Below are positions 9,049-12,734 of a stretch of DNA of 56,474 nucleotides, in pieces. The notes beneath the pieces are model-generated. The model was not told where the DNA came from. It ran no database searches and saw only the letters and a list, made by a program, of their open reading frames with translations. The stretch lies in contig JAJDDT010000116.1 of NCBI GenBank assembly GCA_029260165.1, positions 64,001 through 120,474 of the forward strand. The letters are read 5' to 3'. Numbering within the stretch: position 1 is the first letter of the stretch; each line of letters begins with the position of its first letter. This DNA is from Phycisphaerae bacterium. GTDB lineage: Bacteria > Planctomycetota > Phycisphaerae > UBA1845. The position numbers were made by a program, and so were the translations under genes.

Positions 9049-9771
9049 CTACTGCAGGCGACCCTGCTCGCGCATGTTGGCGTATTCGACACAGAATTTC
9101 GCCCACGGCTTGGCTCGGAGTCGTGATTTGCTGATCGGCAGGTGAGTGGCCAGGCACACACCGTAGGTTTTGTCGACGATGCGATCGATGGCTCCGTCGA
9201 TTTCGTGCACCAGGGTGCGCTCGTTGTCGATCAACCCGAGCGTGAATTCCTGCTCCCAATTGTCCGTGCCAACGTCGGCCATGTGAAGTGGCACTGTAGA
9301 AACGCCGTCCGAATGGTCGTTGCCAAGCGCTTCGTTGGTAAGATGGGCAACATCACCAATCAGTTCCGCGCGCTTTTGGAGCAGAAGCCGCTCAAATTCC
9401 TTCAACTCAACGTCTTTCAGACGTGTTTTGGGAACGGGCTTGTCATCGGGGGCGACGTGAACATTTCGCCTGCCCAGTCTTCGGCTGCGCGATGGCGTTT
9501 TCTTTGCAGTAGCAGTGCGTTTTTGGGTTGTTTTGGGGCTTTTTTTCTTCGGCGACCTGGCCTTGGTGGTCTTCCTGGCGGTGGTTTTCTTTGCTGTACG
9601 CTTCTTTGAGGCGGCTTTTTTCGTCGATTTGGCGGTTGACGTTTTTTTTCTCGATTTGGGCGCGGACCTAGCTGTCGATTTCTTCGCGGCTGACCTTTTG
9701 GTCCTTGCTGCCGACGCCTTCTTTTTCGACGCTACTTTTTTGCTTTTTTTTGAGCTTTTACGCTTTGCCAA
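9049..9771 (-). CDS. TraR/DksA-family protein with Lys-rich histone-like N-terminus
   Basis: Of 240 residues, the first 100 or so are almost entirely Lys, Ala, Ser, Thr and Arg (MAKRKSSKKSKKVASKK onward), resembling histone H1 tails and presumably DNA-binding or disordered. The C-terminal half has the DksA-like coiled-coil segment (ELKEFERLLLQKRAELIGDV) and DNERTLVHEIDGAIDRI, then a zinc-finger region. In that region only two of the four usual cysteines remain: YGVCLATHLPIS has Cys then Thr, and AKFCVEY has Cys then Tyr. Zinc binding may therefore be lost or use the nearby histidine. It leads the lspA-ribD run. DksA proteins modulate RNA polymerase; whether this one does is uncertain. Confidence 0.8.
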   Translation of the reverse strand: MAKRKSSKKSKKVASKKKASAARTKRSAAKKSTARSAPKSRKKTSTAKSTKKAASKKRTAKKTTARKTTKARSPKKKSPKTTQKRTATAKKTPSRSRRLGRRNVHVAPDDKPVPKTRLKDVELKEFERLLLQKRAELIGDVAHLTNEALGNDHSDGVSTVPLHMADVGTDNWEQEFTLGLIDNERTLVHEIDGAIDRIVDKTYGVCLATHLPISKSRLRAKPWAKFCVEYANMREQGRLQ

Positions 9772-10795: not shown

Positions 10796-10825
10796 TTGAC
10801 TCGGGAATTTTCCTTTTGCTAGAAT
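10796..10825 (+). promoter_or_regulatory. Sigma-70-type promoter of the structured RNA
   Basis: TTGACT (10796-10801), an 18-base spacer and TAGAAT (10820-10825). The expected start, seven bases after the -10 box, is the G at 10832, exactly the first base of the closing stem of the RNA's first folded domain. No long coding frame follows. Confidence 0.7.
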
Positions 10826-11027
10826 TGTGGTGTCAGCAGGGTACCGGTGGCCGACTCGCGAAAATCGGCGTGTTTCGGAAACCGGGAGTATGCTGACCGA
10901 GCGGGGCAACAAGGTCCCGCGCGGTGTGCCCGGTGGCGGCGGTCATCGGGGGGAGTCGGGTCGGAGAATGTGGCCGCGCTACCGGCAGGCAGGACCGGCG
11001 TGTTCCCGTGTGATAAGGAGGTGATTT

Positions 11028-11057
11028 GTGGGTAGTGAAATAGGTATGCTGCCGTAA
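11028..11057 (+). CDS. Possible nine-codon leader peptide
   Basis: A GTG at 11028 opens a frame encoding MGSEIGMLP that stops at TAA 11055-11057. It is preceded by TAAGGAGGTGAT (11014-11025), complementary over 12 bases to the conserved 3' end of 16S rRNA, with six bases between GGAGG and GTG. The stop lies inside the left side of the hairpin at 11048-11085, so a ribosome at the stop would block that hairpin. This is the layout of translation-dependent attenuators. No run of a single amino acid codon suggests a sensed amino acid. Translation itself is inference. Confidence 0.4.
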   Translation: MGSEIGMLP

Positions 11058-11097
11058 AGCAGCGACGCTGCTGCTCTATGGCAGCTACAAAGTATCA

Positions 11098-11136
11098 GGC
11101 TCGTCCCTGCCGATGGTGGGGGCGGGCCGTTTTTTT
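11098..11136 (+). terminator. Strong Rho-independent terminator of the structured RNA
   Basis: GGCTCGTCCC (11098-11107) pairs over ten positions with GGGGCGGGCC (11119-11128), including two G-U pairs, around an 11-base loop, followed by a G and seven T (11130-11136). This is among the clearest terminators in the window. An alternative pairing of 10988-10995 with 11103-11111 could compete with it. Confidence 0.85.
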
Positions 11137-11187
11137 GCATGAACTTGTCCTTGATCGCGGCGGGACGGGGATTTTGGTTGATGGGAA

Positions 11188-11270: not shown

Positions 11271-12734
11271 GTGAAGAAATTCGGAAGATTTGTGGCGGTG
11301 GTTGTGCTTCTGTGTCTGTCCCCAGCCTGGTCGGCGACGTTGGAACTGGGGTCGGATGCACCCGGGATCAAGGTTGAGAAGTGGGTCAAGGGCAATCCCG
11401 TGGATCTGGCTGCGCGCAAGGGCAAGGGGGTGACGATTGTTGAGTTTTGGGCGACATGGTGTGCGCCATGCGTTCAGAGCGTCCCGCACCTTACCGAGAT
11501 TCAGCACAAATACGCGTCGAAAAATGTTCGCATCGCGGCGATCACTGCCAGGGATCCTGGGAACACCGAGAAAATCGTGCGGGCTTTTGTCGGTCGGATG
11601 GGCGACAAGCTTGATTACGCGGTGGGATTCGATGCGGACGGGGATACCTATGACGCGTACATGACGGCTGCGAGGCAGGAGTCGATTCCGACGGCGTTTA
11701 TCGTCGACAAGCAGGGCAAGGTCGCGTGGATCGGTCATCCGCTGGATGGGATGGACGTGGTGCTGGATCAGGTTGTGGCTGGTACATACGACGTTGCGAG
11801 GATGAAGCGGTTGATTGCGATCGAGGGGAAGATTGAGTCGTTCGCGATGGCGGGGAAATGGAGCGAGATGGTGGGCGCGGTTGACGAAGCGCTGGCGTTG
11901 GACCCTGGGGACATTGACCGATGGATGACGAAGTTTCTGGTTTACGCCTATCAACTCGATGATTCCGTCAAGGCGAACAATGCTGCGATGAAGGCGTTTG
12001 ACCTTGCGGCTGACGATCCGGACAAACTGGCTGAGGTTGCGATGCAGATTGTCAGTGATTCGGATGAGCACGGATACACGAACATGGCGATTTCGCGACT
12101 GGTAACCGCTCGCCGGAAATTTCCCGCAAATGTGAACCTGGGGATTGCGTTTATTCTCGGGGTGGCTGCTTCGGGTCAGACCGATCATGTGGGAGATGTT
12201 GCAACGCAGGTGATCGAGGGATTGCGGCAGGACTCGGCGGGTCTCGGCCAGATTGCCAACGTTCTTTCCGCTCCGGAATTTGCGTCGTTTGGGGCGCCGT
12301 TGGCGAAGAAGGCGATCGATCTCGCCATCGCCCGGGAACCGAAAAACCCTGACCACTACCTGACGAAATTTCGCATTCACCATTCGTCGTTGAACGATGT
12401 TGCGGGCGCTACTGATGCGGGGGAGAGTTTCGTCGAAAACGCTGAGGCTGATGCGAATCTTCTGAACGGGTTTGCGTGGACGCTGCTGAGTGACCCCACG
12501 ATGTCGGGCAAGTATGACGCGCTGGCGGTGACCGCGGCGGAGGCGATGAGGGTCGCTCCGGGTGGTGATGGCTGGTCGCATCTGGAGACGCTTGCGTTGG
12601 CAAAATTCCGTACGGGGAAGGTTAAGGACGCGATCCGGATTCAGGGGGAGGCGATTGCCAAATGCGATCAGGATTTTGCAAAGATGAACCTGCAGGCGGG
12701 TTTGCTGGAATATCAGAAGTCCGGGAAGAAGTGA
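11271..12734 (+). CDS. Exported TlpA-like thioredoxin with TPR-like C-terminus
   Basis: A 487-residue protein with an N-terminal signal peptide (KKFGRFVAVVVLLCLSPAWSA). A TlpA/ResA-like thioredoxin domain follows to about residue 175. Its redox motif WCAPC has cysteines at 64 and 67, preceded by VTIVEFWATW and followed by the cis-proline region SIPTAFIVDKQGKVAWIGHP. The remaining 300 residues are alpha-helical repeats (AVDEALALDPGDIDRWMTKFLVY, AMRVAPGGDGWSHLETLALAKF) that look like degenerate TPRs. It probably acts in the periplasm as a thiol-disulfide reductase with a protein-binding scaffold; the partner is unknown. The GTG start at 11271 follows GAGGATG. Confidence 0.85.
   Translation: MKKFGRFVAVVVLLCLSPAWSATLELGSDAPGIKVEKWVKGNPVDLAARKGKGVTIVEFWATWCAPCVQSVPHLTEIQHKYASKNVRIAAITARDPGNTEKIVRAFVGRMGDKLDYAVGFDADGDTYDAYMTAARQESIPTAFIVDKQGKVAWIGHPLDGMDVVLDQVVAGTYDVARMKRLIAIEGKIESFAMAGKWSEMVGAVDEALALDPGDIDRWMTKFLVYAYQLDDSVKANNAAMKAFDLAADDPDKLAEVAMQIVSDSDEHGYTNMAISRLVTARRKFPANVNLGIAFILGVAASGQTDHVGDVATQVIEGLRQDSAGLGQIANVLSAPEFASFGAPLAKKAIDLAIAREPKNPDHYLTKFRIHHSSLNDVAGATDAGESFVENAEADANLLNGFAWTLLSDPTMSGKYDALAVTAAEAMRVAPGGDGWSHLETLALAKFRTGKVKDAIRIQGEAIAKCDQDFAKMNLQAGLLEYQKSGKK

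Follow-up and report, generated by a model that had tools for sequence, protein, structure and literature searches.

What kind of RNA, if any, is encoded at positions 10832 to 11136 in the genome of a Phycisphaerae bacterium was the question addressed here. A preliminary description of the window (the whole stretch of DNA analysed, 56,474 nucleotides) had proposed for this locus a structured RNA with its own promoter and terminator, either an undescribed small RNA or a leader of the lineage. The locus was analysed by sequence scans, folding, Rfam comparison, searches of related genomes, and covariation and swap tests, and the following features were assigned:

10796..10825, forward strand: sigma-70-type promoter TTGACT-18-TAGAAT, from a consensus scan; predicted RNA start near 10832
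10832..11136, forward strand: whole predicted RNA of about 305 nt, from promoter and terminator, fold and a same-genus homologue
10832..10897, forward strand: 5′ domain with closing stem GTCAGCA/TGCTGAC and inner hairpin A, from the fold with pairs checked
10898..10923, forward strand: hairpin B, from the fold; covaries in three subfamily alignments
10929..10950, forward strand: hairpin C, 9 bp, with the strongest covariation of the RNA
10951-10954/11004-11007 and 10959-10962/10993-10996, forward strand: helix D, tentative in the window, where the pairs are possible
10973..10986, forward strand: hairpin E, tentative in the window, from covariation in family f10 only and swap tests
11015..11025, forward strand: extended Shine-Dalgarno sequence AAGGAGGTGAT, complementary to the 16S rRNA 3′ end
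11028..11057, forward strand: putative micro-ORF MGSEIGMLP with GTG start, 9 codons and TAA stop (11055-11057)
11031..11037, forward strand: GGTAGTG, ORF side of a proposed pseudoknot with loop E (10977-10983), duplex estimate −8.7 kcal/mol
11048..11085, forward strand: 3′ hairpin, apical loop region with GACG, 5′ arm containing the last codons and the stop, from fold and covariation
11098..11136, forward strand: intrinsic terminator with seven T, from a sequence scan, covariation and T runs in homologues

The promoter, for which a start at 10832 had been proposed before, was recovered by the scan; it matches 10 of 12 consensus bases and carries a TG ahead of the −10 hexamer. Four promoter-like sites, this one included, were found in 3101 bases (both strands), for which shuffling gave a mean of 1.3. 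The promoter recurs at the same distance in homologues: a promoter-like hexamer pair (at least 10 of 12 bases) with a start 190-270 nt 5′ of the Shine-Dalgarno sequence was present in 31 of 103 loci, compared with 1 of 103 by the same criterion in each of two control windows. The terminator hairpin (11098-11128) has 14 pairs, 10 of them G-C, and a 3-nt loop, and is followed by seven T at 11130-11136; the preliminary description was right about the seven T, while its stem of 10 bp was an under-count. Terminator-like sites are common in the region (5 found, 4.0 expected). The terminator pairs covary in f1, the window's own family, and by one pair in f4 and f8 taken together, and in 89 of 107 loci four consecutive T are found 50-140 nt past the micro-ORF stop. 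The 305-nt stretch has a fold energy of −153 kcal/mol (z = −5.17; matched by none of 100 shuffles), the pairs of the closing stem seen earlier were confirmed at 10832-10838 and 10891-10897, and closing stems in homologues look alike by eye (no count). A nearly full-length homologue in the same genus, found by blastn, is 76% identical. Judged from its sequence, 10832-11136 looks like an autonomous RNA gene equipped with a promoter and a terminator of its own.

Comparison with Rfam 15 yielded no match over threshold at the locus, the best one below being HSR-omega_2 (14 bits, E = 3), and in ten relatives only a tRNA exceeded the gathering score. The hallmarks of RNase P RNA, tmRNA and 6S RNA had not been recognised in the locus, and these RNAs were located over cut-off on other contigs of the genome (C107, C8 and C7, respectively). 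For SRP RNA, the model of the small bacterial form (RF00169) was without a match in the whole genome, and no Rfam model matched the locus. Names below threshold (HSR-omega, Leu_leader, microRNAs, CC2171) were judged to be noise or matches to the Shine-Dalgarno sequence. The consensus of CC2171 (RF01867, a Caulobacter sRNA) has AAAGGAGGTGATCCAGTG in common with the RNA, but its scores of 20.9-30.3 bits in four of the ten relatives compare with a threshold of 75, and the likeness was discounted because the letters that clearly match are the Shine-Dalgarno sequence and the start, which are common to any perfect 16S complement. In the window's own genome the only match of this model (17.2 bits) lies away from the locus, and the name CC2171 was found together with Caulobacter neither in the literature searched nor among the wider-search matches listed. 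No description of such an RNA from Phycisphaerae was found in the literature searched, with subscription papers and preprints lying outside. The table in the available part of PMC2864571 assigns the Rhodopirellula-1 motif to Proteobacteria and Planctomycetes and gives no Rfam number for it.

A blastn search of 60 relatives matched ten, eight of which carry the element on reading, and six of these eight were matched only by the 3′ part (window positions 10993-11139). A pattern made from the 3′ part was found in 21 of 397 genomes of the class with one match each, and the reversed pattern in none of the 397. Three covariance models of the 3′ part, R1 to R3, each built on the matches of the previous one and applied at E <= 0.01 to overlapping draws of class genomes, matched 92 of 397, 120 of 397 and 119 of 347 genomes, respectively, a few of the weak matches being false; with R3 each genome was matched once, and the second matches per genome with R1 and R2 are due to opposite-strand echoes at the same place. 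Reading covered 127 model matches from a part of the matching genomes, and 124 loci were kept. Among the 48 weaker or new matches read, the anatomy was present in 45 and absent in L205, L206 and L224, which were dropped before the counts together with L009 and L010; L206 has a Shine-Dalgarno sequence and a GTG, but its ORF runs over 50 codons. The identical L018 and the near-identical L020 were omitted beside L017, and repeat fetches of one locus were counted once. One alignment step left out L203, L204, L209 and the opposite-strand echo of a palindromic hairpin, the true strand of the echo locus being kept.

The kept loci span 14 families of one class. With a stricter pattern, 45 stretches were retrieved from genome contigs, 43 labelled as planctomycetes (mostly MAGs of Phycisphaerae or Phycisphaerales) and one each labelled 'bacterium' and Streptomyces, and two exact-pattern scans of viral contigs revealed no copies. 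In 392 genomes of the phylum R1 matched only the window's own genome, which is weak evidence for absence elsewhere because R1 also misses family f10, which is found by R2 and R3. Some genomes of the window's own family gave no R3 match (e.g. G002, G009, G015, G022 and G023), and these gaps may indistinguishably be missing contigs, divergence or true loss. At L230 (183-273) the 3′ part of the RNA lies, by eye, directly behind the end of an apparent transposase gene, as though the 5′ domain had been lost to an insertion element. In this comparison, which lay apart from the Rhodopirellula-1 consensus, the RNA appears to be an undescribed family of the class Phycisphaerae of about 300 bases and a single copy per genome. 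The earlier proposal that the lineage has here an undescribed small RNA or leader is borne out by the class-wide recurrence, the covarying helices described below and the lack of an Rfam family above threshold; the three contrary outcomes it had named did not occur, as covariation is present, homologues exist beyond this genome and no good Rfam match was found.

Absent from the preliminary description are the Shine-Dalgarno sequence at 11015-11025 and the micro-ORF at 11028-11057. The corresponding 16S rRNA tail CTGGATCACCTCCTT was found in the window's own genome, and 89 of 107 loci have a complementarity of 13-16 nt to the 16S 3′ end (G-U allowed). In all 79 loci read first, GGAGGTG precedes a start codon (ATG, GTG or TTG) at a distance of 11-12 nt, and a stop comes after 6-14 codons. 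The start-codon count is partly circular, as a pattern requiring TG at this place had supplied 12 of the 20 sequences used for R1, and three matches lacking the anatomy were dropped. An in-frame stop after 5-14 codons occurs in 106 of 107 loci, compared with 5 and 12 of 107 in the other two frames, and as a control, among 3193 NTG codons elsewhere in these loci 13.6% run into a stop after 6-14 codons. The start codons of the 124 kept loci are GTG (96), TTG (16) and ATG (12) and the stop codons TAG (74), TAA (33) and TGA (17); two loci of family f26 have GAGGTG in place of GGAGGTG. The micro-ORF comprises 6-14 codons, usually 9 to 13, in 123 of these loci, the sole exception being L209, where an insertion extends the frame to 23 codons, and it ends inside or beside the conserved 3′ hairpin. 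The distance from the start to the arm of this hairpin is 20, 23 or 26 nt in 73 of 107 loci, that is, it varies in steps of three, by which the stop is kept inside the stem. At a distance of 21 or 24 nt (ten loci), nine frames stop just 5′ of the stem and that of L092 reaches codon 14. In the remaining 24 loci the arm was placed 13, 16 or 17 nt past the start, most probably due to the crude search expression also catching an earlier CTGT. The RNA very probably carries a translated micro-ORF, and for this reason the label 'purely non-coding' would be unsuitable.

The extended Shine-Dalgarno sequence might itself be the purpose of the RNA, which would then occupy or test 30S subunits or 70S ribosomes (as a decoy, in hibernation or as a proof-run message), with the micro-ORF as ribosome exit. 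The length of the complementarity, the tail confirmed in the own genome and the single copy per genome argue for this reading, as do the extended Shine-Dalgarno sequences reported for Staphylococcus aureus in the accessible part of PMC13009471. A start codon, a frame and a pairing with the ORF would be superfluous for a mere decoy, and the reading is considered quite improbable.

The helices were assessed by covariation. In a structure-free alignment of 59 of 79 loci (20 divergent loci left out), hairpin C supplies the top one among 19,802 column pairs, and nine more pairs of the helices C, B and the 3′ hairpin are within the top 54; the other 44 of these 54 are not helix pairs and can be explained by relatedness. 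Three subfamily alignments of 25, 28 and 31 sequences (f10, f4 with f8, and f1 without L203 and L204) had 14, 7 and 17 of 53 consensus pairs above the 99th percentile, where 0.53 would be expected, with structures predicted from the same alignments and relatedness uncorrected. High-covariation pairs lie in B, C and the 3′ hairpin in all three subfamilies, and in D and E in f10 only. For the 3′ hairpin, 82 double changes were counted compared with 24.9 in shuffles, in an alignment fitted to the hairpin. Helix D, which surrounds hairpin E and has its 3′ end just ahead of the Shine-Dalgarno sequence, covaries in f10, is predicted without high covariation in f4 with f8 and is unpredicted in f1. 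For the window itself, the lowest-energy fold has a different pairing at hairpin C, and the free fold is better than the consensus arrangement of C, D and E by 9.7 kcal/mol, the pseudoknot not being counted; the same-genus locus L002 folds C freely, but not D and E. Family f13 (L101, L103, L106, L110, L202, L207, L208 and L211) has, by eye, a further hairpin inserted into the 3′ loop, and the 7-base loop of this hairpin (e.g. TGCGATT) resembles a T-loop. L203 and L204 (genus g9) retain the Shine-Dalgarno sequence, the micro-ORF and the stop, but their 3′ hairpin is reduced to a minimum, with the stop within or close to its loop, which makes them a natural deletion variant. In f1, f4 and f8 the loop of hairpin A contains a conserved GGGC, for which a pairing just 5′ of the Shine-Dalgarno sequence is predicted that would compete with helix D.

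Two hairpins of the RNA have related loops: GGCG in the window and mostly GACG in relatives for hairpin C, and GACG or AACG for the 3′ hairpin across loci. Together with the complex 5′ domain they bring to mind a ligand-binding riboswitch controlling the micro-ORF, for example a relative of mini-ykkC, which is the guanidine-II riboswitch. A loose text search located GACG near hairpin C in 111 of 124 loci and ACG past the stop in 119 of 124. The loops are GACG or similar, compared with ACGR given for mini-ykkC in the consulted part of PMC2864571, and no Rfam riboswitch matched in the window or the ten relatives; this explanation is regarded as hardly probable at all.

Loop E is complementary to the early codons of the micro-ORF (2-4, up to 5) and changes along with them: the loop/ORF pairs are CGCUACC/GGUAGUG in the window, CACUACC/GGUAGUG in L002, AUCACC/GGUGAU in L068, UUUACC/GGUAAA in L099, UUCGCC/GGCGAA in L088 and UCACUC/GAGUGA in L075. 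This complementarity was examined by swapping partners between loci, in a test region chosen after the examples had been noticed by eye in the same sequences. For a wide region, 0 of 20000 permutations were as good as the own partners. For a narrow region in 107 loci, the own pairing scored 12.24 compared with 11.13 after swaps among all loci and 11.54 after swaps within families (0 of 5000 as good in both cases), and in 124 loci the own pairing was matched by 1 of 10000 swaps, both overall and within family. The Shine-Dalgarno sequence or the 3′ stem as partner of loop E gave no excess over swaps in 107 loci, nor did three other upstream windows against the ORF, one of which fell below its swaps (z −2.7). 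A scan over the 124 loci had one peak (z 6.4 at −40..−25), the next two upstream windows reaching 2.3 and 2.0. By family, the numbers of swaps as good among 5000 were 24 (f5), 111 (f10), 141 (f8), 181 (f4), 475 (f1) and 3979 (f13); taken singly the families thus show a modest signal, which is not significant in f1, the window's family, and absent in f13. Because the examples had been seen before the test, 17 loci fetched later were checked separately, and the trend in them was the same but not significant (896 of 10000 swaps as good, and 3646 of 10000 for swaps within families). A pairing of loop E with the micro-ORF is supported statistically by these comparisons.

The encoded peptides differ strongly across families (e.g. 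MKGDKR, MGSEIGMLP and MTNCDCTKGLRT), and within groups they share motifs. The motif C-x-(K/R/Q/G/S)-G-L is present in 34 of the 37 peptides of f10, f20, f22, f24 and f26. Of these 34, 24 have D ahead of C, 27 have K or R in the third position and 29 have R or H following L; the other three of the 37 retain G-L-R. In this group six different codons specify the conserved Leu and five (AAG, AAA, AGA, AGG and CGA) the K/R site, and Cys is TGT in 34 of 34. In a second group of 34 loci picked by their ending (group a), (I/L)-G-x-L recurs, with ATA in 33 and GGT in 32. The RNA could be a regulated mRNA, in which the structured 5′ domain would control translation and the micropeptide of 9-13 residues would itself be the product. 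The two recurring motifs, and the Leu maintained through six codons, are in favour of such a product, but both groups were chosen by regular expressions, so that part of the conservation is pre-selected, and the peptides differ between families and are as short as 6 residues. In addition, the near-fixed single codons (TGT 34/34, ATA 33/34), kept despite synonyms, point to an RNA or tRNA constraint. A micropeptide as product is considered unlikely. Peptide and nucleotide constraints both seem to be at work on the micro-ORF; they are inseparable because stem and proposed pseudoknot each take up part of the ORF and because regular expressions were used to choose the groups.

The genomic surroundings were surveyed for 79 loci, with open reading frames of at least 90 codons within up to 1.5-3 kb per side for nearly all of them. 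No cluster of same-strand downstream genes exceeded 5 of the 79 loci, on which ground a stand-alone RNA is preferred over a leader. The commonest neighbour, seen in 11 loci, is a gene upstream in divergent orientation, methyltransferase-like by Pfam in the window. Among 47 loci belonging to six families, neighbours that recur frequently were upstream, and the largest downstream same-strand group among the twelve clusters listed comprised 4 loci. In 19 loci, namely 17 of 25 in f10 and both loci of f26, a protein of about 60 residues without Pfam match is encoded upstream on the strand of the RNA, and in L198 it lies about 270-450 nt 5′ of the Shine-Dalgarno sequence; a gene for an ABC-3 metal permease is upstream in 11 f10 loci, often with the protein of about 60 residues behind it, and neither was found in other families among the 124 loci. 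The RNA is therefore not bound to one pathway by its surroundings. Elsewhere in the window, an ORF on the reverse strand (9049-9771) has a long lysine/alanine-rich N-terminal tail, and its end presumably resembles DksA/TraR proteins.

A transcription attenuator of an adjacent gene, in which the position of the ribosome on the micro-ORF would decide on termination, would agree with the leader-peptide anatomy, the terminator and, in the window, the thioredoxin-fold gene downstream at 11271 on the same strand. The low recurrence of downstream genes argues against it, and the 3′ hairpin and the terminator share no arm by eye (no count), which leaves an attenuator very unlikely.

Sequence comparison establishes a recurring predicted RNA gene that has a promoter and a terminator, helices that covary, and a reading frame whose start, phase and stop are maintained. 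We infer from this comparison that the RNA is transcribed and translated, that ribosomes open its pseudoknot and hairpin, and that its output is in trans. An even chance is given to the reading as a stand-alone, ribosome-operated RNA switch of leader-peptide type. Such an RNA would be transcribed from its own promoter and end at its own terminator, and its 5′ half would fold into hairpins, of which B and C are supported by covariation in three subfamilies and D and E in one. Loop E would pair with codons 2-5 of the micro-ORF and leave the extended Shine-Dalgarno sequence in the connecting strand. A 30S subunit may then bind this very strong site, start at GTG, ATG or TTG and break the loop-ORF pairing, and the ribosome would read 6-14 codons, stop inside or just before the 3′ hairpin and open its 5′ arm. 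The RNA could thereby exist in two forms, locked when ribosome-free and open when ribosome-engaged, as in leader-peptide attenuators but with no attached gene, and the output would be in trans, through a protein bound to the RNA or a segment released from it, or would lie in the stability of the RNA itself. Only tentatively, as a proposal that may well be wrong, this is extended to an autonomous RNA machine that captures a ribosome by a near-maximal Shine-Dalgarno sequence and leads it over about ten codons through pseudoknot and hairpin, the passage itself being the signal; it would sense or test ribosomes and answer in trans, with no regulated gene on the transcript and no conventional protein product.

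Several known systems resemble the ribosome-operated switch in part. Leader-peptide attenuators likewise have a short ORF with a strong ribosome-binding site, as predicted here, but a conserved downstream gene on the same transcript is lacking, and because this attached gene is one defining feature the RNA was not filed among them. In dual-function sRNAs such as SgrS and RNAIII, one RNA is both structured and coding. The predicted RNA likewise combines structure with a putative ORF, which is much shorter here; its autonomy and ORF are supported by the sequence, and it is not known to pair with a target. In the peTrpL leader-peptide system of Sinorhizobium meliloti, the sRNA is rnTrpL. According to the available part of PMC7298713, peTrpL also involves a short translated ORF and a structured leader RNA, with a product acting away from its operon; the differences are that no downstream gene recurs here, that the ORF is very short and that a 5′ domain of about 185 nt with loop-ORF pairing precedes it. 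The cyanobacterial Downstream-peptide family (RF01704) had no match at the locus or in the ten relatives. The Downstream-peptide motif is known as a glutamine riboswitch. Together with yfr6 it is presented, as far as the accessible text of PMC2864571 goes, as an RNA of about 250 nt with a structured 5′ part followed by a short conserved ORF, but these ORFs have 17-100 residues and belong to another phylum. In the regulatory uORF toiL, which senses ribosome-targeting drugs, the position of the ribosome on a short ORF alters RNA pairing as proposed here, whereas toiL controls a gene on the same transcript (PMC12121999, consulted in part) and none recurs here.

For the PVC group, the table of a review lists 8 distinct sRNAs (PMC9029176, available part). 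Few sRNAs are thus annotated in this part of the bacteria. Its single copy, its presence in 14 families, the absence of a recurring downstream gene and the micro-ORF kept in frame indicate that the RNA is probably important to its hosts. It would represent a natural case in which the crossing of about ten codons by a ribosome may itself be the output, a question which a cell-free system can address.
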